Source: Haplosporangium gracile
Taxonomy: Eukaryota; Mortierellomycota; Mortierellomycetes; Mortierellales; Mortierellaceae
Reading direction: 5' to 3'
Length of the DNA: 38,257 bases
Assembly (NCBI GenBank): GCA_015499985.1
Contig: JAAAUF010000348.1
Location: 1 to 38,257 of the forward strand
Shown here: positions 25 through 36,292 of the stretch, piece after piece
Layout of the letters: each line of letters starts with the position of its first letter
Numbering within the stretch: the first letter of the stretch is position 1
Translations under genes and position numbers: made by a program
The notes under the pieces: generated by a model
Database searches by the model: none
What the model saw: the letters and a program-made list of their open reading frames with translations, nothing else
Told to the model about the DNA's origin: nothing

Positions 25-3000
25 ATGCTAAAGTTCTTTACAAAGGGCTTCTCCGCAAAAGACCTCGAAGACAAGCACACACGCGAGTTACTCGAGCAGG
101 AATGGCAAGTCTTTTTATTTTTATAAACACATACGCAACATCTTCAGTCCTTGACTACCCTGTCGACCCACACCCCGCATCCTTCCCCTATATAATAACC
201 ATCGTCACCTTCATTCAATCAACAAAAAGCACCCGACAACAAAATGAAAAAGAATTAAGACGACGAGAAAGGATGATCTACGATCGTGCGATCAAGTTCA
301 TACACAGCAGTTAGACTGGAAGCACAACGACAAGAGCGGTAAAAGTCCAGGGTGACACTAGTCCACTAGTCCATCTTTGGATGCAAATATCAACTATTCA
401 ATATTAAGAACAACAATAATGCCCTCTCTTCATCCGTCCTTCCTTCCTTCTTCTCCCTCTTCCTCTTCTGTTCGCCCTATCGTCTTTGTTTCCCTGCTCA
501 TAGCTCACTTCCTTTTACTTTTCTTTTCTCCTCTTCTCTTTTTGTCACTCTCGTTAAAATGTTTACAGATCCAATTAAACCATGGACCTATTATATCTAA
601 CCTGTGTCTTTCTTTCACCCTACTTCATTCTCGGATATATCCATGGCATCTGATACAGCTGGAACTTGCCGTCGTTTGGCACAAACGAGATCCGGGTGTT
701 GATGTGCCAGGAAGTCAGCGCAATTCATGATGTCGTCCTTTTTGACAGCCAGCAAGTCTCGGGCTCTGACTACAACCCATTAGAATCGCCCAGTCCGTCG
801 CCTGCCAAGAGCTCCTTCAAGAGCAGCAGCATGAACAGTCTCTTTGGCTCCCTCCGGAGTGACCGTTCCCTCCCCATCAACCTCACCGGCAGCCAAACTG
901 TCCCCGTCCGCCGCACAACAAAGCTCGTAAGAAACAAAAAAAAATATTACATATATTCACCATTTTCCTTTCTATCCAACAAACAAACAAACAAACATCA
1001 TCATCTTCATGACCATGGAATGGGTGGATTGGATCAAGAGCGAGTCTCATGTTCAATGGCTACAAAAGATCTGAAAGGGAGGAAAACACACATACATACA
1101 TGCATACGCACATGCATTGGGTCGCATCTATCACTTTTGTACCCTTTTCCATGCAAATGTTCCTCGAATGACGCCAGATCACGTCGCAGAGGGAACAACG
1201 ACGAGCTTATGCAGCGGACTTTTTTTCCCTTTTTTTTCGTTGTTTTGTTCGCCTGCTTAAGCGCATCCCCAGTTTACTTACCCTCCTTTGTTTTTTGTTC
1301 TTTAACCTATAGATCCCATCCATCATCCCAAAGCTCATGTTCGGCACAACCCCACTCGCCTACAAGGGCTCAACGACAAAGATCCACCTCCTAAACGAGC
1401 CCGCCCAGATTATGATGACAAAGACCTTCAGCATACACCCAACCGATGTCATGGCCTACACCGTCGCATCCACTCGGAGAGGCTCCTTCTCGTCCAACAA
1501 CAGCGCAAATACTACAACCGCAGAGGTCAACTACATGTCTACCATCAGCGGCCACGGTGACTACAGATCACACCCTCGTGCTTCACGACCCATGACAGCC
1601 TTTATACCCGAGTCCGCCTACACTCGAGACCGGGACCGAGACGAGAACAAGAATGGAAACGTTTCATTCTCACTACCTAATACCTCTCATATCCGGACAA
1701 GGTCCTCACGACCGGGGTTTGACATACGTAGGCTAAGGCGGGCCAGTCAAACCAGCATGGAGAACGGCACCTTCAACCCCACTCCCCTTCCCAGCTCCTT
1801 TTCGCACCTCGACAGTCTTGGTAACGCCAAGGTATGTTATGTTGCCTTCCGCGTCGTCCCGCCAACGTCTTGCCTGCTTAATCTAAAGGGCAGAGAACTC
1901 ATCTTTGTACGCTGTCTCATTCCATTGACTTTTTTCTAGCCATATCTCACTCAAGCAGCGCGGTCTAAATCATTCTCGATTACAGTTTTCATTGAGGTCA
2001 ACCACAACACTCGGTTGCGGGAATTCGTGTTTTCGCATTTCGCTCTAATCGAAACACGCCTGCACCACCTCCAAGCATTATGTCTGGAGCTGTTACTCCC
2101 AGTCTGCCGTCGAATGATGAACGCGGTATGAACCAACAGAGGACGATTCCCAGCACCCATTTCAGAAATATATGTAACCGTATGTGATCTCTCCAACACA
2201 GCACTAATGTCTGCAAATCTTGTTCAACTATGTAGAAAGCGGGGTTGTCAGGAAACGGGACTGTCCGATCAATACCGGATCTGGCGAGACTTTCCTTTCA
2301 GCAGGACCCGAGACTTCAGGAAGCGGTGGCCCGACTCCAGCAGACAATCTACCAGCTCTACAGCGCTCCACGGATACAGGTACGCCTGGGATGTTGCGCA
2401 AAAAAAAAATTCAAAAAAGGAGGTATTCTCAACAATCGTGCATCTCATACGAACAATCTTCACTTGGCGCAGGTATGCTAACAGCGTTTTACAAACTTTG
2501 TTCTTACGACTGCAATAGTCGCCTCTGTGGCTCAACATTAACACATACCCAAGCAAACGATCAGCTTACTCGTCGTCGTTTATGGGAGAGCTCACTTTTA
2601 TGATGGAGGAAAGTCCCGCGTCGAGTCAACTGGTGTCGGAAGTCATTACGGCAGTGTTGAGCCACCACATGTCCTGGGTTCCTACGGTAGCTCCTACTGA
2701 CCAGGCACTAGTGAGAGTAAGGATATCATTACCGAATCTGTCAGATCTCAAGGAAAAGTTGCAGCGGACAATCATACAGACATGCTGATATTGCTATAAT
2801 TTTCTTTGAACATCTATCAGGCTAATCCTCAAGGAGCATACGACCCACTCTGGGCCCAGCTGAGCGATCTATACGGGAACATTGGGACGTCTTCCAGAAT
2901 CAGTAGGACCATTGTGGTGGGCTCGAACGGTAGCTTTGTCCGGCGGCTATTGTTCATCCTAAGCTATTTTATCCGCTGTAATGAGGTCTTTCAACGCGTG

Positions 3001-4472
3001 ACAGAGTTCAAGGATGACCCCGAATCGCTGTTGAACCCACCTGCACTTACCAGGTCTATGAACGAACTTGTAGAGGAGAATGAAAGCGGGAGCCCAGCGA
3101 CAATGGTGCGATCGATCAGTATACCAAAGCGACCTAGGATCGATACTTTTGCGGCGCGCGGTCTGTCCGTTTCTCGGGCGTCTGTCTCCTCTCGACTGAC
3201 CTCGATCGGAGAGCCTCCAACCCCGACTTTGATGGCTCACAATGACAACGATCGACCCATCACGCCTTCGATCTCTCGGAGACCATTGTTTGACACATCT
3301 CGACCAAGGATTGATACCAAGGATTCTCTTTCCACAGAGTCGACACCTTACCATTCCCGACCTACAACCCCGACCACCATCGAGAGCCGTGCAGACTCTG
3401 ACCGCATCTCGGCAGTGGGCGAGGAAAACGGATTTCAATCACAGAATCGGCTTTCATCTATGAATGGCCCCAATCACCAACTTCGCGTGGACACAATGCG
3501 GTCCCGGACTCATTCTTCGGATACATTGAGCACGGATGCGCCACGGAGTGCACACGACTCTGGTTGCCCAGCACAGGATGTTCTTGCGGATGTGCCATTG
3601 CCACCGTCAAGGGTCGTTTGTTCCTTTCCCCCGTTTCCCAATAATGCGCGCCTTAATGGCAGCGGAGCTGTTAATGGCGCTAACAACGGAACAGGAGATG
3701 GCCTGGAGGACAAGATGTTGCCTGCAGATGTGCTTTTTTGCAAATCGTATGGACGATCGCTCATGGCACCCTACTGTGACAAATACATGTCTGATTTTGC
3801 GCTAATGGGAGTTCCCAAGTTTGATTTCCAGCATTTTATGGAGACGGACATGCGAGATACGATGCGTCATTTTGAGATCCAGGAACGAGTGTCGTCAACG
3901 GTGTGTATTGTGGCCGATGCGAACACGATGAAATGTAACGTGTTCTGCGCAAAGGCATCTGCACCTCTGCCTCAAGCGATACTGGACCCTGCAGATATGA
4001 GAGGAGGCGGCAACGGTGGAGGTTTCGGTGGAGGAGTAGGATTAGATCTGCGAGGTGAACCTGTGACTCGGCTACCCCATGCCTCGACTAGTTCGTTCTT
4101 GGACTCGACCCTGCATCAAATGGTTGACCTTGGTCGTAGCGGTCTCGCCGCAGAGCTCGTAAATGTTTTCATTTGTTTTGTGTATGGTTTGTCCCTTGTC
4201 CAACAAATTGTGTGAGATCAGCGTAGTAACCACGATGTTTGCTTTTTACTTTTGATATCTAGTGCTTGAATTACTTAGAAGACCGCCTTCATCAGTTGTA
4301 CCAGAGCAGTCGGATGCTTTCGAGTATGGCGCGGGACAAGGATCTATTGAGAAGTTATCCTACATTGGACTCTATGGCGCCATTGTTGGGGCTTCACCGA
4401 TCGGACATGTCGCTACTGGCGGCCATCTGTTCGACGTATGACGACCTAGTGTGCGCTGTCTTTGATAGCTAG
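25..4472 (+). CDS. FNIP: Folliculin-interacting protein (FNIP/Lst4 family), nine exons
   Basis: Proposed exons: 25-108, 311-351, 659-926, 1313-1831, 1940-2125, 2236-2379, 2519-2716, 2821-4158, 4263-4472 (about 995 aa). The family (FNIP1/2, yeast Lst4) pairs with folliculin/Lst7 as a Rag GTPase GAP at the lysosome/vacuole, linking amino acids to TORC1. Visible family blocks: VLMCQEVSAIHDVVLFDS (N-terminal longin-type region), MFGTTPLAYKGSTTKIH near residue 140, RASQTSMENGTF near 274, then the middle block with FSHFALIETRL, SHHMSWVPTV and YDPLWAQLSDLYGNIG, followed by RTIVVGSNGSFVRRLL and FILSYFIRCNEVFQR. A Ser/Thr/Pro-rich insert covers roughly residues 550-780. The FNIP_C region includes VCIVADANT and, in the last exon, CLNYLEDRLHQLY and LLGLHRSDMSLLAAICST. 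It resembles animal FNIP more than the shortened yeast Lst4. Exons 1-2 are the least certain: the first donor (GTCTTT) is weak, and exon 2 was chosen because it alone keeps frame into WNLPSFG. Confidence 0.88.
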
Positions 4473-9529: not shown

Positions 9530-12500
9530 ATGATGCCGTCTTCATCCCCACGGTCGCCTTCCTTATCTTCTTCGACCCAAACACCTATGCCTGCCTCGCC
9601 TGTCTCGCCCTCGCGATCCCGTGGAAACCAGTTTTACCACTCTGAACCCATCCCACAGTCCCCTACCCGTCCATCCGTCGACCTTGCAAGACCTCTCTCG
9701 CCTGCACCCTCCCAGCCACAACCACGACCTCCATCCTCACCCGCAACAAAGCATACCTCTCTGGGTGAAATGCCCGCCTCCCACCGCAACTGGATCAATA
9801 ATAGTTCCAATAATACCACCATCGACCAGAACCTTCATTCAACAAACAATTCCACGACAACACCTGCGAGTTCATCATCAGAGAGAGTCGCGCTGCAGTT
9901 CAACACTTCAGAAATAGAACGTAGTTTTCAAGCCCTGCTTAAGAAACAGCCCATAGCCACTCCAGGCCCTTCGTTGTTCCAGAGCAAGATACATAGACAC
10001 CTACACCCCAAGGATGCTAGCCAGCCCAGACACCTGCTGACCGCAGGAACACAAATACAGCAGCGACCGTTGCCTGGATCGCCCAACAGCAGCCATCTGT
10101 CACATTCCCCTGTCTTTGGCTCACCCGCTGCAGAGCATGCACGACATTGGATTAAATCCGCAGAACTCGGTCGGGACCATATCAGCGACTCGGAGAGTGA
10201 ACAGCGGGAGAGCAGTGACCACGACAGTTACGAGGAGAGCCAGCAGCAGCAGCAGTGGCAGATTGATTACGACCACCATATCGCAGGCCATGTCGAGCTC
10301 GAGACCGAGGTAGAGTCTTCTTCCAGCAAGCCAGTAGACTCGAAACAACAGCAGCAACAACAGCAACAACAACAACAGCAACAGCCATTGTGGACGGGCA
10401 AAGTACATCCTATGTTCAACATGTCAGGTATGAAAACAACAACATGGTCGCTTTTATTGATACCTTTCATAGCAGCAATGTAAATGCAGCCAGAAACACA
10501 GTCGCTCTTGACAGTAACCCTCTCATCAAATACACTCTCGTTTTTTGCATGATTAGACCCGCAGGGAGTAAGAGACCAGGGGCTGTATCCAGGACTGATC
10601 TCACCAGCAGCAGGACGACCCTCTATTCGCATCAAGGACCAGTGCGCCATCCACCCTCTCTCACCTGTCCCACCCTCCCCCAGCTCGGGAACCTCAACAC
10701 CCAGGATACCACAATCGCGATCGCCTGAAATTCGACCTCAGGTGGTTCTTCACCCGCCAGGTGACGCCGCCCTTGGCTTTGATCTCGGATCGATACCTCC
10801 CCTAGCACCCATTGCAGTCAACCAACCGCTCCCGCCTCTCCCACCGCTGCCCACCCAATCACCCCCAACACCTGACCAGTCTCGACTTCGATCCAAACAG
10901 GTCAGCAACCTCAGTAATGGCACTAGCAAAAGGTCAACCACACCCCTCAAAAAGTCATCCAAGTCCAACCTTCTTGCGGTCAAGCCAATACCATTCACGG
11001 AGAAGAAACCTGTCTCGCTCACCAATCCGCCACGAAAGTGTATCCATCACGGCAAGATCCTACAGGTCATCAATACATCGACCGTCAAGGATCGGTACCT
11101 CTTCCTGTTCAGCGACATCCTAGTCATTGCCAAGCCCATGTCGGACGGCCACCCAACCATCGACAGTCGATTCCAAGTCAAGGATGTCATTGAGCTCAAA
11201 AAGATCTCTCTTAGTCTGTCCCGAGACAAATACGACCCAAAGTCTGGCGATGCAGGATCATCTGGAAATCGCAAGATACCCCCTATCCTCGCAGAGTTCA
11301 TCCACACATTTGATCAGAGTCCCATTCGAGCGCTCAACACCTTTATCCAAAAACGCGCTCTTCATCCGGACCCAGTCTCTGTAGCCCACCTCTTGTTTAA
11401 GACACCAGAGTTATCAAAGATTCAACTCGCTTTGTTCCTCTCCAACCCGGCCAACAAGCATGTGTACAGAGCATTCCTGGATCAGTGTCAATTTGCGGGA
11501 GTCTTGCTGGACGAAGCCTTGCGGACGTTACTTGGTCGACTGTCTCTCCCCAATCGTGTCGACTCTCAGCGCTCCAATGGACACTCGGACCGAACTTTCA
11601 ACAGCGTCGACTATTTGTTGGAGGAGTTCACCCGGCGGTGGTACGAGGCCAACGTTAATGTTGTTGTTTACGACGCTTCCATTGCCCACAAGCTGGTCAT
11701 TGCCATGATTGTCCTCAACGCACAACTGCATAACAACGAAGGAGCAGGAATTGTCCGGGATCGGGAGGAAGTTGGCACCCTTGTTAGACCTCGAGTCGCT
11801 TCTCAACCATCTACGCCCACCATACCGTCGACACCCGTCATGGAGTCGACCCTTTCTGCACCTTCAGTACCTGCGCCACAACAGTATATGACAATGGAGT
11901 TGGATGACTTAACACTGTTCCCGACCCCAACGAAGGACTCTTTTGTGGAAATGTTCCAGCTCTTGGACCAGCAGCGCATTGTTTCGCGGGACACTCTCCA
12001 CAACATCTTTTTGTCGATCAGTCACCAGCCTCTCGACATTGAGTTTGACAAGATGGACACGCACGCCAGCAACCCCAAATCCAACCCTGTTGTTGCGCGC
12101 AAGCTGTGGCCTATCCTTATTTCGCCTGCAGTTCTTCCCCCGCGGTTGACACTCAAGATCCCCTCGGACTCAATTACCATTACTGTGCCGGTCCTCAATC
12201 CGCATTTTTCGATCCATGTGGGCGGACGCGATCTCAGGTGCGAGCCTTCAGTCCTAGAGTTTGGTTCTCACCGCAGTCAGCGGTTCAAGATCACGGGTCT
12301 GGTTCCTGGCAAGAAGACGTTGACGATCCATCCACGACTTGTTTCCGACAAGGGTTTGCCTGAGCAATTCTATGACCTCCAAAACTTGCCTACTAAGCAC
12401 ACTGTTGCCATTGAGCGACAGTTTATGCGTCACACCTTCCAGATTTCGTTGCTTAACGATTTGGGGACGAGACGCCGGTACCTCTTTGGAACTTCTTCTG

Positions 12501-13759
12501 CTGCCGAGAAGGATGACTGGGCTAGAGTTTTGACAGAGTGCCTGTTGGTGGCGAAGGGGCAGAATGCCGTCCGATTGAATGAGCATACGGGTCTTGAGCA
12601 GTCGATTGGGCTTCAAATTCTAAAGGAACTTTTGCTGGGAGTGGAGGCTTCGGATGAGGATGACTTGGGGGCCACACAGGCGAATGGGAAAACTGAGCCC
12701 GTCCCTTCTTTGCCTATTCCCATTCCTCTTCCAGGAGTGCCACCGCCTGCGCTTGGGCTAGGGATTCCATTGGATGGTCTTGGCATGACGGGCAAGACTG
12801 TTGTTAGTTCTCCGTTGTCTGCTATGAGTCCGAAGGTGCTTCCGCCCACGGGTCATGCTAGTCCGACGCTGGGGACAGGGGCTGGAGTTGGTATTCCAGG
12901 AGGTCCAGTTTCGGGTGGAGCCAATGGCGCCGAGTGGTCTTCAGGGCATATGCTCAAGGATGCATGGATGTGTAAGATGCCTCGTCCTGGTTCTGCTATA
13001 CCTGACCGACACGGATGGGAGTTGGTTCGACTGGTGGAGCAGAATAGTTTGATGGCATTGATGCTCGGGTTCATGGGAGCACTTGGTCGAGACCGACTCC
13101 GACGGATGGAGGCGGTGAGGAGGGCTATGGAGGAGGAGGCAAGGCAGGCAGAGGAGGATGGTTTTGAGGATGAAGAAGAAGAGGAAGAAGAATACGAGGA
13201 TGAGGATGAAGATGAGGGATATGAGGAGGACGAGTATGAGGATGGGTTGTACGAGAACATTATTGAGGAAGGAACGGAGGCGGAAGGAGAAGAGGAGGAT
13301 GACGATAGGATCCGCAGTGAAAGCATTGCCTCCAATAATAACAATGGTTCAGGAGGAGGAGGACGAGTTCGACGGCCTGGGCCGAATTTTTCACGATTGC
13401 CGCAGCCCCCGAGAAGAAGAAGATCGGTTGTTGTTGGAGCTGAGCCCGCGCTTGAGAGAATTGGCACCACCGCCTCCTCTACCTCAAGTAGGATTGCCAC
13501 TGGTAGTGAGACTATCGTCATCGGCGCAGCAGGAACAGGAACGAGAGCAGCAGCAGCAACAGCAGAAAGATCCGCTGTGGCAGACGCAGATGGGGAGCAT
13601 GTCGAGAGGATGGAGAAGCTAGAGGAGAGGGACGAACAGGAAGAGAGCCATGGCAACGAGAGAGAGGCACAGCCGGATGACTTTGAGGACGGAGTTGTGT
13701 CTGCAGTATCTGCCAAGGTGCGCAAAGTCAAAGGCAAAGAGATCTGGTGGGCGCAGTAG
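9530..13759 (+). CDS. PH / Sec7-like / PH protein (Arf-GEF-like, glutamic finger missing)
   Basis: Two exons, 9530-10427 and 10557-13759, 1366 aa. Residues 1-450 are disordered and Ser/Pro/Gln-rich with a 13-residue Gln run. Residues about 460-530 look PH-like (DRYLFLFSDILVIAKP). A Sec7-type fold follows at about 543-696: FDQSPIRALNTFIQKRAL, VAHLLFKTPELSKIQLALFL, FLDQCQFAGVLLDEALRTLL, VDYLLEEFTRRWYEANV and AHKLVIAMIVLNAQLHN line up with the ARNO/cytohesin order. Sec7 domains activate Arf GTPases through a Glu in an FRLPGEAQ loop. Here that loop reads LSLPNRVDSQ, followed by a short insert, so the catalytic Glu is absent. A second PH-like domain at about 865-970 contains HTFQISLLNDLGTRRRYLF and KDDWARVL. 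The tail has an acidic block at about 1168-1215. Likely role: membrane-bound Arf regulator or scaffold; catalytic GEF activity is doubtful. Tandem ATGs occur at 9530 and 9533. Confidence 0.82.
10346..10384 (+). repeat. Polyglutamine tract (mixed CAA/CAG)
   Basis: Thirteen consecutive Gln codons near the end of exon 1 of the Sec7-like gene, encoded by interspersed CAA and CAG. The mixture makes the tract less slippage-prone than a pure repeat. It lies in the disordered N-terminal region. Confidence 0.9.
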
Positions 13760-14605
13760 GTTGTTCACAACAACACGTTTTTCTTGTTCCACTATCCCTC
13801 TTTGTTTCAATTGAGTGCATATAATGCGGTGTGTCTGTGTGCTTTTTTTATATTGTTTAGTGTCGTTTGTTGATTTTTTTTATTCATTGCTGTGACAAGG
13901 GATATATCACTTTTAGCATAGAGACGATACATTTAAAGGAACAACAAGAAGGGTTCTTCAACGTGAACAAACCCTTTTTTTATATCTTCTTTCACTTTTC
14001 CAATTTCTTCTTGGTCTTTGTTCTTTCCTTGTCCTTGTGTGTTTAGAGTATTCTCGACAAAGGAAAGTGACGAGTGAGCACAAAAGTCGATGATAGTGAC
14101 CATGTATGGAACCCCGGGAAAAGGCACAAAGAAACAAGAGAAGAGAAAGAGAGAATGAGAGCAAAAAATCATAAGCAGGGATCATACCCAAGAAGGACAA
14201 ACGAGGCATCCCCTATGTGTGTGTCTTTGTGGTCCCTGTGTCCCTTTCTTCCTTTCTTCTTAAAAGTAAAAAAAAGTATTTTGAGGGAGAAAGAGCGCGA
14301 GAAGGGAAAGGTAAAAGAAAGTTTGTTTTGCCACCAGTGGGTCAGTTCAATTGAGCGTTGCCACCACCATCACCACCCACCACAAGAGTCTCCATCTGCG
14401 TTCGTGTCGACTCTGCCGCATAGAAAGGAGAGCTAAGCCACGTCAATCAGGCGGAGGTATTAAAGAAGAAATCGTCCCTTTTGGTTTCTCTTTTTCTTCT
14501 CTTACATTCTTTCATTATCCGCCCTTCCCTCTCCCTTCCCTTCCCCTCCCTTCCCTTCCCTCCAACTTACTCGAAAACACACAGGCGATACATACAACAG
14601 ACAAT
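13760..14605. promoter_or_regulatory. Spacer with SKP1 upstream region
   Basis: 846 nt between the Sec7-like stop codon and the SKP1 start. The first part carries T-rich sequence typical of a fungal 3' region. The last part has a strong pyrimidine tract of repeated CCCTT units (about 14519-14563) just before the SKP1 leader, the likely core promoter/transcription start region. No conserved ORF or RNA gene is seen. Confidence 0.45.
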
Positions 14606-15085
14606 ATGACCGTCATTCTTGTTTCCTCAGACAACCAAGACTTCAAGGTCGACAAGGAGGTCGCTGAGCGCTCGATCCTCATCAAGAACATGCTCGAGGA
14701 TGTCGGAGAGTCTGACTCGCCCATTCCCCTCCCCAACGTCACCGCCGCCGTCCTCACCAAGGTCATCGAGTACTGCGAACACCACCGCAACGACCCCGTC
14801 CAGGTCCCCGAGGAGACCGACGACCCCCGCAAGCGGTCCAACGACATTGAGGAGTGGGATATGAAGTTCATGCAGGTTGACCAGGAGATGCTCTTCGAGA
14901 TCATCCTCGCCGCTAACTATCTCGATATCAAGCCCCTCCTCGACGTCGGCTGTAAGACCGTCGCCAACATCATCAAGGGCAAGACCCCTGAGGAAATCCG
15001 CAAGGCCTTCAACATTGTCAACGACTTCACGCCCGAAGAGGAGGCCCAGATTAAGAAGGAGAACGAGTGGGCTGAGGACCGCTAA
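14606..15085 (+). CDS. SKP1: SKP1, SCF ubiquitin ligase adaptor
   Basis: A single intronless exon encoding 159 aa. Skp1 bridges F-box proteins to Cul1 in SCF E3 ligases and also serves in other Skp1-containing complexes. The N-terminal BTB/POZ fold is visible ([47 protein letters not shown]). The C-terminal F-box-binding helices carry the nearly invariant signature [17 protein letters not shown], then [38 protein letters not shown] and a final EWAEDR. Length is normal. An in-frame upstream ATG at 14351 was rejected because SKP1 proteins begin immediately before the first beta strand. It is the only intronless protein gene here and has C-ending codon preference, consistent with high expression. 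Confidence 0.98.
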
Positions 15086-16891: not shown

Positions 16892-19800
16892 ATGAGCAAC
16901 TTGCTGGCAATCGACTTCAAGAGGACAGAGACACTGTCGATGACAAAGGCCCTCAGCGACTACATCTCAACCTCATATGCAGAACACCCAGACACCTACC
17001 AGGACGACTTTCGCGTCCTCGACGAGCTCAGAGCAGACATCGTCAACCTCGAGCCCCACCAGAACGCGCTTAATCGTCTCCTCAAGTACGTCTCTTGAAT
17101 TATTTGTTGTTCGAGCCTTTCGTTAACATAAAAGACGACAAGGGTCTTGGCAAATTTACATATCCGAGTGGACCTTTTACGTTGTGTTTTGTTTTGTTTC
17201 ATGGCGAAAGAAAGAATATATACTCATGCATCCTTCCTTTTTCCTTGTCTCTTTCTATTTCCGCTGCTTTTATCACTATCTGGATCGCTTTTGTTCCCAA
17301 CATTTTCAATGCCTTTTTCTCCATCAGGTATCATGCCCAGTTGGTCTTTATCAGTTCAAAATTCCCTATCGATGTAAGCCCACTCCTACATTCCACCGCG
17401 TACTCTGGGGCTATTGACGAGCAAGCTGAACATACACTCACGTGCATCTCCTTTATTGTTGCTGTTGACTGATAATTACCATCTCTTACTCGCATTGGTG
17501 CGTTATCTAGACCGGTATTGAGTTTCCTTGGGCACTCGTCAGCAGCACGGACAAGAAGATGAGTACGTCTGATACAGAGAAACCAGACTTTTGTCCGACT
17601 ACATTTAATCAAGAGTCATCAGATGTTTATTCTTTCACACACACACACACACACACGCGCGCGCGCGACACATGCTTTCGAGAGGACTCACACTCGCTAA
17701 CCTCTTTGTTTTTTTTCATGTCAATACTTTAGATTCGTTCAGGAATATGTATTATGAGCGAGCATGCATCTGCTTCAACATTGGAGCCATGTACTCTCAG
17801 CTGGGCAACAACGAGAACAGGAATTCAGCAGAGGGACTTAAGCGTGCTTACTCCTACTTTCAGGTGCACCTTGCTTGTTTACGCTAAGGACAGCTTCGTT
17901 ATACCGTTTGATACTTTCAAGCGTCTGTACCTATCCTTGCACTTTGCCAAACTATTTATGTTTGAGAAAAAAAAAACTCACAATTTGTTCCGCTTCTCGT
18001 TTCTTCGTATAATTGGATGGTTTTCTAGAACGCGGCGGGAAGCTTCCAACATTTGCACGATACAATCATCCCAGAGCTCAGGATTGCACCCACAGTAGAC
18101 ATCTCGACTGCAGCTCTTACCGTCTATGTCCAGCTCATGCTGGCCCAGGCTCAGGAATGCTTCTGGCAGAAGGGCGCTCTCGGTATGCACAACATAGGGT
18201 GATAGCATACGCTCATGTCGCAAAGACAGTAATACTTGAATAAGGCTCGAATTAACCAAATCATTATCCATTACACACCATTTGTCGTATAGACCAGATT
18301 AAGGATGGACTGATTTCAAAACTGGCAGGCAAGGTCGCGGATTACTATGAGGCTGCTCTTGAAGGCGCAACTCACAGCAGCATGTCTTCGCTCTTCACCA
18401 GCTCATGGACCAGTCATATGCAGGCCAAGGCGCTTCACTTCAACGCCGTTTCACAGTACAGAAAGTCTTGTGAATGTATCTCTCAAAACAAGTACGGCGA
18501 GGAGATTGCTCGTCTTCAGATCGCAGAGAGGCTGGTCAACCAAGGATTGAGTCAACGGGATCTTCGGGACACTGTGATGAATGATCTTAAGTCGCTCCAA
18601 AAGGCCATCCACAAGAACTTGTCGCGGGCAGAAAAAGATAATGACATCATCTACCTGGAGCCGATTCCTGCAGAGACGACTCTTATTGCGATTGGAAGGG
18701 CTGATATGAGTAAACCCACTCTTATCCCTGAGATATCGAACCCTGTGCCCTTGATGAACGAGCACAATATGCTTTTGGGTGTGCCATTGTTCTCAAGGCT
18801 GGTCCCCTTTGCGGTTCACCAGGCTGCAAGTGTCTACACGGAGCGTAAGGAGCGGATCGTCAAAGAGGACATTGGTGGAAAATTTGATGAGCTCACCGGC
18901 GTCTGTTATAGGTATGTGCACTTGCTTCCAATCTACTTCATGTAATTGCATTTACAGACGGGATGCGCTATGTGCTATGTTCATAACGAGACCACTTTTT
19001 AATTTGTTGCTTACATATATTAGTCAAATGCAGGCGCTCAATTTACCGGGAGCATTGCAGGCGATGGAACAACCGGTTGGACTGCCTCCTTCATTGTTGT
19101 CACATATTGACGAGATTCATGCCGAGGGAGGCGTTCGGGGCTTGCACGAGATGATGGAAACTGTGCGGACGCTCTCTCGGCAAAACTCGGCCATCCTGGA
19201 TGAAATCTTTGAGGCCTTGCAACAGGAAGCGGACGAGGATGAAGTGATGCGGCAGCGGTTCCAAGGACGATGGAACCGACCCACTTCGGCGTCCTTGACG
19301 GTTGCATTCGTGGAGCAAGGGCGGAAACATCGCGAAACTCTAGAGACTGCTAGGAAGAGCGACCTAATTGTCAAGAACAAGCTGGAGGCCCTGATGACTA
19401 CGTGGGGCAGGTCCTTGGAGCTCCTGAGCAGCGGACGTGTAAGCCCTTGGCTTTGTTCGATTATGGGAATGACTGTGCGAACATAGTCTCCTCATTGTGA
19501 ATATGCTAACGACCAGAGTTTCTCCCAATGACCATAGGCGGAGGTGGAAAGGGCTGTACCGAATACGACGAGCGCTCCAGGATCCTCTGACCCAGAGATT
19601 GTCGACGATCTGAAGATGTTGCTGGAGGAGGTAGACCAGATGATCAAGGCGCGTCGGATCAAGCTGGAGGAGATCAAGCGGATTGCGGACGAGGACGATA
19701 TTGGACCAGCGCTGGTGTCGATTACCAACAAACTGACTGCAAACTCGTCCGCAGTCAAGATTGAGCCCGCCCACTTTGAGGCACTCTTCCAGGAGCAATT

Positions 19801-21411: not shown

Positions 21412-24400
21412 ATGGAAACGGTGTTCCAGTTGGCCAGGGTCCAACTCCCGTCTTCCTCGTCGTCCTCCTTGTCGTCGCCAACATCTCCAGTCGCGAGTCC
21501 ATGGAGAGTTGAAGTCCCTGAATCCACAAGGACGTTACTCGAAGACATTACGCAGCCAATTGCCGTTATCTCTTACTGTAAGTTGTTCGCTTGTGTTTTG
21601 ATAGGTGCTTAATTGATCAGAAACACAAAAATACTTTCTTCGTCTCACCTTTTCTATTCTCTTGGTGTTATGTGTGTTAGTGAGTCAGGACCGAGAGGTG
21701 CGGGATGCGTTGTGGACGGCGTTCAAGGATGTCTATGGGTGGCAGGTTCAGGCAACGAAGACTATGACGATGACTGGAGGAGAAGAGATAGCAACAGGCT
21801 TGTCGATGGGTATCTGGGGGTGGATCTCACCCCCTGATACGGCCCAGGATGACGAAGAAACAGTAGAAGCAGCAACAGGAGGAGGAGGAGGAGGAGGAGG
21901 AGGAGGCTTTATGGCTGTGAGGAGGCTGCATCTATTATTTTGGGGTGACAACAATGGAGACCTTGAGGATGATGATATGAGTGATGACGAAAAACTGAAG
22001 AAAGGGAGGTGGGCAGATCAGGATCTGGAAGACGTCGAAAGAGTAGTCTGGTCGCTGTTGAGTCTTTGCTCGACGTATCTGACGGTTGTATCTCCTGATC
22101 TGGAAACGACACGGCGGGAGATTGCGAGACTTGTCGGGTTGGTGCAACCTCTTGCTGGAAATCGTAAAGGAAGGAATGATGCACGAGAGAAGGCGGTACT
22201 GGATTGGAGATGGGTTGGACAGGATATCGCAGATCAGGACCAGGATCTGGATCTGGATGGTGACGAGGACGACGGACGAGCTGTTCTGGAGAGTATCCTT
22301 GAAGACTATGACGGCATCGAAGAAAGAGGAGACAGCAGGCAGGTGTTGGATACGGTGTGTAAGGTGTTTGGCGGTGTAAAGTGTAAACCACCCACGCCGG
22401 TGGGTGTTGAGTGGAGTAGGAGAGGATCAGAGGTGGATGCGATTCGGGCCGAGGCCGCGACGGGGACGTTCCGGATCTTGTGTGATTACAGTATTGACGA
22501 CAATAAGGCCGAGAAGCGGTTTCAATGGATCCGGAAATTGTGGAGGTCGTTTGATGGTTGTGACTCTGGCATAGAGGATTGTGAGGCGGGGTATCCTAGG
22601 GTATTCTCTGGTACGCTATTGTTCGCTTTTTATTCTTTGTCTGTGCGATAGAAATCGTTAGTATCGAAGTGACGTTCAACTTCCGCATTTTTTTTTCAAT
22701 AGGTGCGATCTTGAGCAGCAGGATACAGGCATGTCTGGCACAACTGAACAAACACCCTCAGCCTTCTCCTCACCACCTTCCACTGCTACTGCAACAACAA
22801 TTCAACGCCAAAGAGCTGCAAACGACACTACAGGACCTGATCCGGGAACGAGCATTAAGTATCGGGATGCAGACATATCATCGAGAGATGAATATGTTTC
22901 TGAACAAGAGGCCGATCCCATTGCCGTGGCATACTTTGGCAATGGTCCATCTGCGGGCGCAATCCATTGCCTGCGAAGAGATCGAAGCGCGGTTTTGGGG
23001 AGCAGGAGGTGGTGGGTTGGAATTGAGGCGAGTGATGAAGGAGTTTCGGAGACCTTGTGTTGTCACAGAGGCTGATGAAGATGAAGTAGGAAAGAGAGAA
23101 GGGGGTGGAAAGAAGGAGGAGGTGAAAGTAGAGGTGAAGAAGGGGAGTAAAGGAGAGGGGATGGTGGTGCCAGGAGGAGGGCTGTATTTAGAGTACTATT
23201 CTGCGAATGCGGCGGCGTTGCAAGAACACCATTTGAGTGCGCTGGATGAGCATTGGCAGGTGTTGTTAAAGAACCGGCTGTTAGTAGCCAAGAATGGAGT
23301 TGGTGGTAATAATGGTAGTACTAGTGCTGCAGCTGTGGGGGGATCGGGCTCTGGGCTCTCGAAAGCTGCTCCGCACATTAAGGTAAATAGTGCTTTTTGT
23401 TTTTGTAAATATTTATTATTATTATTATTTTGTGTGTCTGAAAGTTACATCGCAGCACCCACTAAAACGCGTTTTTCTCGGCATTGAAAAACTAAATTAG
23501 GATTATACAGAATTCTTGTTGGCAGTGGATCAAGTGCGAAGAGGTTATTTGGAAAGCTGTATCCCAAGCCCAGAAGCACTTTCGGTGCTCGAGAACCTGG
23601 ATGAAATGCAACAATCGGAATCGATCTTGTTCTTACAGACCCTTGCCGCTGCTGCTCCTGCTGCAAACACTTCAGCGACAGCAACGACAACCCCGCCAAC
23701 GACGAATGCTCAGCAGCAACAACAGCCTGCGTCGGCAAAGGGATTGCCATCGAAACGGTACTCGATCACCAACCATCCAACAGTAGCATTGAACGGGCGA
23801 GAGTTGATGATCCATCCTGCGGCGGGAGATGACTCCAGGATCAGCAATACCAGTAGCGGTAATATGAGTAGCGCGCGTCGGCCGAGTAGTAGTCAGGCGA
23901 TGGAGGCGCCAACAGAGTTGGAGCAACAGATTGCCGATATCCTGATGTCGAAGAGTGGACGGGACAATTCGCAGAATGACTCGGCTTTGATCTCCAGGTT
24001 TGTCTTTTCTCTTAACTATTTGAAGGTAATCCAGGAACGTTTATAGAGAGGAGGAAGATTGTCATGAGACTAACTTTTAAGTGGACAATTGAGTAGAAAG
24101 TCGATTGGTAGCAACGGGTCCAGCAGTAGTGGAGCCAAGAGGAGTGCAATGTCATTATTCCAGAATAGCAGCAACGGCGCGGGAGTTGCACAGACAGCGG
24201 CGAGCGGAAGTATAGGCTCGGTGCGGAGGAAGAGTGAAGATAAAGACAAGACGGTGGTGCAGTTTGGATGGACGTTCCATCTGCGACATAACAACAGTCT
24301 GCAGTACGCTTGGATCTGGGATTGGTTGTCCTCCCATGCCGGTTCATCCCATCAGAACGTTGGTAAAGTTCTCTCTGTTGTCTTCAAGCAACAATAGTTA

Positions 24401-27376
24401 AACATACCCGATATCTGCGACTTTCAGTTCACGACTAAGCTCGTTTTTTCTTGCATCGTGACATCAATAGTGGCGTGCGATAACAAGATATACACGGCTT
24501 CAAAGTGGATGATCCTCCCTGCAAAGGATATTGCTGTGGCAAGGACAAGGACAGGGAGACAAAAGGAATGGAAGATTGCGTATGGGGATCGAATATGGTT
24601 AGTGTCATACTGGTACTCGATACAAAATGCCACAATGGAATTGCCAGAGTATCTCCTTCGGGCAAGAGGCGGAGCATGTCGACATATTGTGCCCTATGGC
24701 GAGACTTTTGTCATCTGTCGGACTTGTCCTGCCGATGTTCTGTGCATGCGTTGCTTCCGAGGTAAGGCGATAGATATTTGGTTGCTTCAGACGAGATACG
24801 TGAAGCAATTGGCCCAAAGCTAATTTTTTTTATCATTATTTTGTTGTGAATAGCTTCGGATCATGCGGACCATTCGATGTATCTGCAGTGCTCGTGGGGA
24901 GACTCTGTCTGCGTGTGTGGGGATCCAGCAAGGCTCAAGGAAGATGGCCATGCCCACGGGTTGCATTGCTCAATGCATAATGCAGAACCTGAACGAGCGT
25001 ATTCCAGATTTGCAAAGGGACGACCGTGTGAGGTTTTGTTCCTTCCAGGCGAAACTGTTTACAAGTGCAAGGTACAAAGACGTTTTTTTTAGCTCAGTGC
25101 ATGTTGTTTGATGATGGCCGTAGAAACATCTTTACTGACAGGCTATTGCTTTCTCTCTAGTCATGCCTGATCAATGAAATGGACGACAAAGCTCTTTGTG
25201 TTCGGTGCTTTCACTCGGTAAGTCGTGACAAGGAGCTCAATTGCAATGGTAAAGACTACAGCAGCACTCTAATGGCAGACCTACTGAACATCACCCTTCC
25301 TTTCGATAGCAAAACCACTTTGAGCATGATGTGGTGGTACAATTGGCAGAGGCGGGAACCAACTGTAGCTGTGAAGATGGCTATTCGTGGAGGGACGACC
25401 TAACATGCTCCTATCACAGTCCAGGCGACCTGGAGGTCGAATACCTTCCAAAATCCATTTCATTCAGCACCAACTCTACGGTTACAGAATCAGACAGTTC
25501 TCTGCCTACTAATACAGTGGTGGTGGCAACACAGGAGGAGCAACATCAGTGCGGGCATGTGTTCCAACAGGGCGAAGACATCTATCACTGTCAGGACTGC
25601 AGCACTCATGAAGGAGTAGCTCTCTGCAGCAGATGTTTCTTTGGCTCGGATTGTGTGACCCACCAATGGCGGGTGGGTCAATTCTGGAGTGGCGCACAAA
25701 GTAACAAACGTGGCAGTACTGGTGGATCGGTGGATGATACATTGACCTCTGTTGTTGTCGGACTTGGGATCAGCCAGAGTGCGCTTGGAGGCAGCACCGG
25801 TTCTATGCATCCGCTGGTGCAGCGGCAGCGAGATGAAGCAGAAGACGAGGAGGACGTAGTTATGAGGTGTGGGTGTGGTGACCCAGGGTTGTTTAGAAAG
25901 GCGTTTGATTGCAACTACCACTTACCACAAGAGTTCCGACCTGTACCTCAGTCGCACCACTGCAACTATCTCTTTCAGAGAGAGGAAGTCATGCTTCAGT
26001 GCCGGACGTGTCATATCTACAGGAACAACGAAGATGTTTGGATCTGCGGGCGGTGCTTTGATCCGACGCAACATGTGGGCCATGAGACTGAGGAGGTTGT
26101 GAATCGTTGGAATGAGGGGTTGTACTGCCGTTGCGGTGATCCGAGTATCTTTCAGGAGCAGGCCGTGTCAGAAGGATTGGCGGTAGGGATGGAATCGAAG
26201 TGCAGGGATGATCATAGTCGACAGACTGTGCTGTGTGCCACAGATATCAAGGACGGCATGTTCTTCTACAGATGTCAGGTAATCACAGAAGACTTGATAA
26301 GCATCGATAATGGACATTTAACGACGTGCTTCAGCTACTAACCACAGCGACTTTTCCTTTACTCAAACGAAAAACGACGAAAATAGTCGTGCCAGATAGA
26401 TGCAAAGTGGGTGTTCTGCGAAAGGTGCTTTGTCCATGAAGCACATGAAGGTCATTCATACGAGCGACGGCTGTGTACAACAATGGCTGGAGGATTAGAG
26501 GGTTTGCGGTGTGGGTGTGGTGAGAATAGTGCGTTCCGGTGTGCAACCCACTGTCAGCAGCATGAACGTGTTGGAGGGACTAATGTTGTCCTGAGGTGCA
26601 AGTATATTGCCCGTGCCGGCGAGTGGGTCTCCTTCTGCAGGTAAGGTCCTCGTTCTTTGTTTCTATTATGCTTGTCATTGGTGTATGCAGAGAATTAATA
26701 ACATTACCGTTGTTGTGGCTCGATGAGTAGCGATTGCTACCCGAGTGAAGAGGGTACTGAAGGTGTACGTGGATATCTTTGTCAAAGATGTCGTGAGACG
26801 TCGGATCATTCTGGGCATGAGGATGAATGGATGCAATTGGAGGAGGATATGGTTCTCTCGTGTGCATGCGGTTCACGGCGGCAGACATTGCTACTGGGTG
26901 AAGAAGAAGACGGAGAACAGATGGCCGTGATAGGACAGAGTCCTTCTTCACCACCGGCGCTGTGCGGGTATCACACGATGGTGTACAAGACGACACCTTC
27001 GACAACACTGTTCCTACACTCGTCTCGGGACCACCAACCAAGTAACCACCACCACGACGATGAGGACCGAAGTGAAGTCAGTGGGTGCAAGTACGACGAC
27101 TCTGACAATGACTGGGTCCTTCATCGCGCACCTTCTCATTCCTCTTCTACGAAACACGAAGAGACTGGCAGACAGTTGCTGAGGTGGAAGGATATGGTCT
27201 GGCTGGAGCATGCGAACACAGGACGATATTTTAGTTCGATGGCTGGGTACAAGAATGGACAGGGGTTCCAGGAGGTGGTGTGTGCGGACGAGACTGATGA
27301 CGAGGATGGAGATGGGGACCACGAGTGGATCGTTGAGGAGACTACCTGGGTCCGCCAGCACATCCTTGGGCAATGA
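21412..27376 (+). CDS. Six-UBR-box zinc-finger protein with C-terminal MIR-like repeats
   Basis: Exons: 21412-21577, 21681-22610, 22703-23382, 23501-23997, 24082-24362, 24471-24761, 24854-25071, 25161-25217, 25310-26278, 26387-26640, 26728-27376; about 1663 aa. UBR boxes are zinc-binding modules that recognise N-terminal degrons in UBR1-type ligases. Residues 1-920 show no known domain (low-complexity Gly, Ser, Gln runs). Six boxes follow at about 921-990, 1006-1076, 1121-1244, 1258-1342, 1349-1422 and 1434-1530. Box 1 is clear: CRHIVPYGETFVICRTC, LCMRCFRASDHADH, then CVCGD and CSMH; box 5 has FFYRCQSC and CERCFVHEAHEGH. The end (about 1535-1650) has two MIR-like repeats: LFLHSS...SEVSGC...DNDWVLHR and VWLEHANTGRYFSS...QEVVC...HEWIVEE. 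No RING, HECT or ClpS-like domain is visible. The acceptor of exon 6 is uncertain (24470 or 24602, both in frame). Confidence 0.85.
21878..21906 (+). repeat. (GGA)n tract encoding polyglycine
   Basis: About ten GGA/GGC codons in exon 2 of the UBR-array gene give a run of ten glycines. It is a likely slippage-prone linker within an acidic, disordered segment. Confidence 0.85.
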
Positions 27377-36220: not shown

Positions 36221-36292
36221 TTCCCAGTCCGGGGATCGAACCCGGGCCTTGTCGGTGAGAGCGACAAATCCTGACCACTGGACCAACTAGGA
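36221..36292 (-). tRNA. tRNA-Glu (anticodon CTC)
   Basis: A 72-nt cloverleaf on the minus strand. The acceptor stem pairs TCCTAGT with ACTGGGA (one T-G wobble), with discriminator A at 36221. The A box reads TTGGTCCAGTGG and the B box GGTTCGATCCC. The anticodon arm is TGTCG-CTCTCAC-CGACA, placing CTC at positions 34-36, which reads GAG (Glu). The T arm is CCGGG-TTCGATC-CCCGG. No intron is present. Runs of four T on the transcribed strand (36211-36214 and 36205-36208 as AAAA on +) provide RNA polymerase III termination a few bases downstream. Confidence 0.96.

Follow-up and report, generated by a model that had tools for sequence, protein, structure and literature searches.

A Haplosporangium gracile gene predicted to encode six UBR boxes, probably set within a MIR-like domain

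The window, meaning the whole stretch of 38,257 nucleotides of Haplosporangium gracile DNA that was analysed, carries a gene on the forward strand (21412-27376) with 11 coding exons, whose predicted product has 1657 aa. The predicted features of the gene, given in window positions, are as follows.

21412-21577, 21681-22610, 22703-23382 and 23501-23997, forward strand: exons 1-4 (splice-border model)
24097-24362, 24471-24761, 24854-25071 and 25161-25217, forward strand: exons 5-8 (splice-border model)
25310-26278, 26387-26640 and 26731-27376, forward strand: exons 9-11 (splice-border model)
21505-22500, forward strand: degenerate GBP-like G-domain region lacking the P-loop Lys (approximate limits)
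22703-23644, forward strand: helical region similar to the middle domain of GBPs and atlastins (limits approximate)
24254-24631, forward strand: N-terminal part of a predicted MIR-like trefoil, comprising repeat 1 and the opening strand of repeat 2 (aa ~811-900)
24677-24978, forward strand: UBR box 1 (aa ~916-985), one intron, 42.2 bits
25027-25417, forward strand: UBR box 2 (aa ~1002-1071), two introns, 46.3 bits
25550-25921, forward strand: UBR box 3 (aa ~1116-1239), its zinc ligands separated by a long insert, 38.3 bits
25961-26215, forward strand: UBR box 4 (aa ~1253-1337), 49.4 bits
26234-26563, forward strand: UBR box 5 (aa ~1344-1417), one intron, 45.2 bits
26597-26974, forward strand: UBR box 6 (aa ~1429-1524), one intron, 33.9 bits
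26996-27376, forward strand: C-terminal part of the predicted MIR-like trefoil, comprising the remainder of repeat 2 plus repeat 3, up to the stop codon (aa ~1532-1657)

Splice borders were picked by eye and checked by script, and the first exon and the start codon are the least certain parts of the model. All ten introns are of the GT-AG type, 89-118 nt long and compatible in phase. Of the ten exon junctions, eight align without gaps in 7-14 of 17 homologous models. For junctions 4 and 5 this is so in none of the 17: junction 4 falls within a variable linker, and junction 5 where some homologous models have additional residues. The public model P0030 (H. gracile BGZ47_006232) has 387 aa from the middle of the gene only, and 371 of these match the predicted protein exactly in a single run (aa 593-963); it is therefore taken as a truncated public model of this gene. 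An earlier note had placed the protein at 24471-27376. The frame is open through that interval, which runs from base 1 of an internal exon to the final base of the stop codon, but this is only the 3' part of a larger gene and misses about 850 N-terminal residues, including the GBP/atlastin-like region.

Several other genes were recognised by Pfam on the forward strand upstream of the UBR gene: a folliculin-interacting-protein-like exon (2800-4215; FNIP_M E 1.3e-18, FNIP_C 1.4e-16), a Sec7-domain protein in a single long frame (10553-13759; E 1.9e-29), a Skp1 gene (14315-15085; Skp1 E 3.4e-28, Skp1_POZ 2.9e-26) and a BRO1-domain exon (18256-18945; E 2.8e-56). The Skp1 gene lies about 6 kb from the UBR gene, a closeness that may be due to chance. 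A tRNA-Glu gene (anticodon ctc) is found on the reverse strand at 36221-36292.

The Pfam zf-UBR family matches the predicted protein in six stretches (E 1e-53). When the boxes are scored singly, all six exceed the curated PF02207 cut-off of 25.2 bits (33.9-49.4 bits), and they cover about aa 916-1524, in keeping with the earlier description of six consecutive UBR boxes filling about 610 residues. Judged from the alignment, Cys or His occupies the putative ligand positions of three zinc ions in every box; box 3 has Cys instead of the first His, and in box 4 the last ligand pair is displaced by an insertion and was assigned by eye. The structure model of the homologue P0006 contains a UBR fold at box 4 (691-785) and at box 5 (804-874). 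The insert of box 3 (window about 25685-25867) is long, variable in length, placed between zinc ligands and also present in the relatives compared. The genome has two further UBR loci: L001, on another contig, is a separate box that keeps all three pocket residues Asp118, Asp150 and Asp153, and L002 (around 1501-1698, reverse strand; PF02207 E 1.1e-12) has a different type of box (CDCGTARF), presumably UBR7-like.

Three homologue searches found 33 distinct database proteins of the family, one of them the public model of this gene, and all are named as coming from Mortierella-type genera; those other than Haplosporangium gracile we take to be Mortierellomycetes. The homologue searches, which found 23, 29 and 12 proteins, match through shared 5-residue words (in the 29-protein search the best 7989 candidates by shared words were scored), and the restriction to Mortierella-type fungi holds within these searches. 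Both MIR-like flanks occur within one protein in 14 of 34 sequences, counting the predicted H. gracile protein. The order of the six boxes was scored by short anchor motifs, by which 10 of the 34 were counted; P0006 was dropped, its box 2 anchor being false and lying in box 3. All six anchors thus stand in order between the flanks in the predicted protein and in eight public models (P0001, P0005, P0007, P0024, P0025, P0027, P0028 and P0029). In P0007 the repeat 2 anchor was matched by chance, ahead of its true position. Among the eight, every box is complete in P0027 and P0029 only; the other six (P0001, P0005, P0007, P0024, P0025 and P0028) have one or two boxes that are incomplete, with the missing part often at an exon border. 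P0002 and P0026 lack the box 1 anchor alone, N-terminal markers are also found in the six models P0024 to P0029, and many of the remaining relatives' models are fragments. The eight ordered models, which are themselves predictions, place the C-terminus in the same gene as the boxes, as had been proposed, and on their account a separate C-terminal gene is rejected.

Zf-UBR was matched in all 26 family members scanned at E ≤ 1. No RING, HECT, ClpS or F-box was found among the 16 Pfam families matched in 26 relatives at E 1, several of these being fragments, nor among the Pfam matches of the predicted protein at E 10. NCBIfam, with its bacterial and archaeal models, gave no match in the two sequences scanned. 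Some relatives are named 'E3 ubiquitin-protein ligase' although Pfam finds no RING, HECT or F-box in them, and the name has probably been transferred from the UBR box alone.

The array is flanked on both sides by conserved family motifs, FGWTLHMLHANTLQ...EGSSRQNVVACDSK...SKWIILPAKD...YGDRVWLVSYWF upstream and TTLYLHSH...NEVTGY...NNDWI...WKDVFWLKHANTGKYFNS...QGFQEVS...NNDWI downstream. An intron (24363-24470) lies within the upstream part. Profiles were made of the part before the array (A1), of the C part (A2) and of the two joined with the array removed, unedited (A8). Against the PDB, A2 matches PMT1 (E 8e-8), the SDF2-like protein 3MAL (8.6e-7) and 1T9F (4e-6), A1 finds only 1T9F (E 0.23), and A8 reaches 1T9F at E 8e-7 through a domain spanning the junction (2.1e-7 with A3, a partly edited joined profile). 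MIR-like repeats after the array, as the earlier note described them, are thus borne out by A2; they are probably not a tail but belong to a split domain, part of which apparently precedes the array and was overlooked at that time.

The flanks were compared by hhalign with A9, a four-sequence MIR profile of two PMTs and one SDF2-like protein from the same genome and the 1T9F fragment. A8 aligns with A9 continuously over the junction (columns 2-156; score 86.0, 98.0%), the N part alone aligns with columns 2-44 (25.9, 27.0%) and the C part alone with columns 48-156 (72.4, 97.5%), so that the C part supplies most of the joined score. The permuted control and the control with a reversed N part both score 71.8 and revert to columns 48-156, and the N part with a reversed C part scores 24.5. 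From these scores and columns, the N part fills columns that are absent from the C part, and does so in the correct order only; because the two ranges adjoin without overlapping, the array probably sits inside one MIR-like domain, in the hairpin of repeat 2. A9 is a small profile, and the first half of repeat 1 lies outside it, as its 1T9F row starts at the point where the alignment with A3 had started. For that half the evidence is the repeat pattern and PF08709, the IP3/ryanodine receptor trefoil family, which matches P0016 before the array (E 5.4e-4) and, over the junction, the joined form of P0026 (E 5.5e-4), both under that family's 23-bit cut-off. PF08709 matched one of three joined sequences, and the permuted one was unmatched. 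A direct alignment of A1 with A2 covers just 13 columns (E 0.11), in the expected register.

Pfam MIR (PF02815) does not match the predicted protein, whole or with the array removed; in the C parts of relatives its best match has E 1.8e-5 and 25.2 bits against a cut-off of 25.6, and it matches four of six joined rows (best E 2.4e-7), three of the six being edited sequences. Its single-sequence scores drop on joining in three of three cases, the permuted control scoring about the same as the joined sequence. With HMMER, 1T9F scores 31.3 bits joined, including one 22.2-bit domain over the junction, compared with 27.2 permuted, 25.9 for the C part alone, 12.1 for the N part alone and at most 9.1 in the 741 reported shuffles. 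Joined scores are lower than those of the C part alone for the two PMTs (21.6 vs 25.6 and 20.1 vs 24.4) and for the genome's own SDF2-like protein (27.5 vs 31.7). The AlphaFold model m8e5132a570a0 does not build a trefoil, and its pLDDT is mostly below 60 in the MIR-like region. The falls in score on joining lower our odds slightly; insertion of the array into a MIR domain is still considered likely from the profile alignments.

The N-terminal part of the protein probably derives from a GBP/atlastin-like large GTPase, as far as structure models indicate. GBP and atlastin rows rank top in both structure comparisons of the helical region; AHSP also appeared in one of them (with the P0006 model), which lowers our odds slightly. 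With the P0023 model, no Foldseek match reached E ≤ 0.001: rows for herpesvirus capsid came first (probability ≤0.10), and atlastin-1 at rank 7 had the highest probability among the matches listed (0.75). Sequence comparison gave no significant similarity of the N-terminal region to GBP or atlastin. The N-terminal profile A7 reached GBP5 at E 0.13 and 0.22 and GBP2 at 0.33, with Talin-1 also at 0.064-0.31, a further comparison gave GBP5 at E 2, and the helical-region profile found no GBP in the PDB. Pfam GBP did not match the predicted protein, and across the H. gracile genome it matched nothing, the controls included, so that this genome scan is uninformative. GTPases of the GBP/atlastin type carry the P-loop motif GxxxxGK[S/T]; Lys at the aligned GK position is present in none of ten aligned rows, and the GBP-like region is likely to be inactive as a GTPase.

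The earlier note saw in the array a multivalent reader of protein N-termini. The pocket positions Asp118, Asp150 and Asp153 are named in what we take to be UBR2 numbering. At the Asp150 position, boxes 1-6 of the predicted protein have V, S, G, R, G and A, at the Asp153 position they have D, D, D, D, E and S, and Asp118 is retained in boxes 1 and 5; none of the six boxes has all three. In UBR2, as described in PMC10687169, Asp150 and the Phe148 backbone hold the amino terminus and Asp153 holds the arginine side chain. The residues by which UBR2 holds an N-degron are thus not retained, Asp150 being replaced in all six boxes, and the proposed role as a multivalent N-terminus reader is not supported; for H. 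gracile, an array of six UBR1/2-like type-1 N-degron readers is rejected. Pocket residues were counted for all six boxes in the predicted protein and for boxes 3, 4 and 6 in the relatives. In box 3 the Phe103 position is conserved in 22/22 sequences, Asp150 in 15/22 and Asp153 in 21/22, with Gly at the Asp150 position in the remaining seven, the predicted H. gracile protein among them. This one box may, from its residues, read N-termini in the species that keep Asp150. At the same position, 22 of 23 sequences carry R, H or K in box 4 and 14 of 15 carry Ala in box 6, a pattern that suggests constraint for something other than N-degron reading.

By a narrow balance, we favour a protein in which six UBR boxes are flanked by the two parts of a single MIR-type β-trefoil and preceded by a GTPase-like region that is likely inactive, and which acts as a non-catalytic multivalent adaptor. 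Closing like a clasp, the trefoil would keep the two ends of the arm of zinc boxes next to each other; with the ends brought together, the six boxes would form one looped, multivalent binding surface. The boxes would bind protein partners. Since none of the six has the Asp150 that holds the amine, these would mostly be other than Arg/Lys/His N-degrons. The N-terminal GBP-like region may be a platform for dimerisation or for a partner. As no RING, HECT, ClpS or F-box was found, the protein on its own is probably not an E3 and would have no ubiquitin transfer of its own.

The array could instead be a multivalent N-recognin whose six boxes bind N-degrons and deliver clients for ubiquitination. 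The boxes are genuine UBR boxes, box 3 keeps most of its pocket across the family (Phe103 22/22, Asp150 15/22, Asp153 21/22), and a box without the arginine-selecting Asp, that of UBR4, can still bind N-termini, according to PMC10687169. Against this, Asp150 is replaced in six of six boxes, Asp153 gives way to Glu in box 5 and to Ser in box 6, Pfam finds no RING, HECT or ClpS, and the L001 box of the same genome has Asp118, Asp150 and Asp153 all intact; we regard this function as unlikely. A low probability is also given to an arrangement without any trefoil insertion, in which the protein simply ends in a short MIR-like tail and an unrelated linker precedes the array. Such a tail would account for the match of the C part by itself (72.4, 97.5%) to the MIR profile, for the fall of Pfam MIR scores on joining (3/3) and of three of four HMMER targets, for an N part that finds just 1T9F in the PDB (E 0.23) and for an AlphaFold model without a trefoil. 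Against it stand the alignment of the N part by itself to MIR columns missing from the C part (2-44 vs 48-156), a joined score of 86.0 vs 72.4 that depends on order (71.8 permuted, 71.8 with N reversed) and PF08709 matches that take in the N part.

Fusion of neighbouring genes in the gene model, such that the UBR array, the MIR-like parts and the GBP-like region are not one protein, would be in line with a public model of only 387 aa (P0030), with the fragmentary models of many relatives and with an exon model built from sequence alone. We consider it very improbable, since eight public models, predicted by others, have six ordered box anchors between both flanks and P0024 to P0029 also bear the N-terminal markers. 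As a further and less probable extension of the adaptor with its split trefoil, we tentatively propose a looped receptor of a new class that would have arisen in the Mortierella lineage: a dead GBP/atlastin-type GTPase would carry a trefoil clasp, a six-UBR arm would leave the hairpin of repeat 2, and the N-degron reader module would have become a clamped surface with six sites for other ligands.

Each component has known counterparts. The N-recognin E3s UBR1 and UBR2 and plant PRT6, with one UBR box each, resemble the array in box sequence and zinc ligands and are the best PDB matches of its boxes, but the present protein differs in having six boxes and a changed Asp150 in all of them, and neither RING nor ClpS was found in it. 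UBR4, an E3 that has a single UBR box, contrasts with the six boxes here, beside which no catalytic module was found. UBR4 and other UBR proteins with non-canonical boxes likewise depart from the UBR1/2 Asp pocket (PMC10687169). The flanks share the MIR repeat pattern and a profile match with PMTs, SDF2 and the IP3/ryanodine receptors. In contrast to these, a stretch of ~630 residues with the zinc array apparently lies inside repeat 2, and Pfam MIR does not match the predicted protein itself; in contrast to the PMTs and receptors, no mannosyltransferase or channel family is found by Pfam. GBPs and atlastins, large GTPases of the dynamin superfamily, are alike in the structure rank of the helical region and in a weak N-terminal profile match, but differ by the missing P-loop Lys, the unmatched Pfam GBP and the lack of a significant sequence match.

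The literature searched contained no prior description of a protein that combines a UBR box with MIR, GBP or atlastin domains, which agrees with the earlier statement that UBR and MIR-like parts in one gene were undescribed; nor did literature on Mortierella UBR-type proteins, Mucoromycota N-recognins or multi-UBR-box proteins describe such a protein. The list of domains found beside UBR boxes in a 2015 survey, which ends in 'etc.', names neither MIR nor GBP, and the same source states that most UBR boxes outside the N-recognins were without experimentally shown functions or partners (PMC4506424).

UBR boxes have been studied chiefly as single readers of N-degrons. A conserved array of six, none of them with the full canonical pocket in H. 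gracile, provides material for asking what other ligands UBR boxes may have. If it is true that this array lies within the hairpin of a β-trefoil, it would be a striking case of domain insertion.
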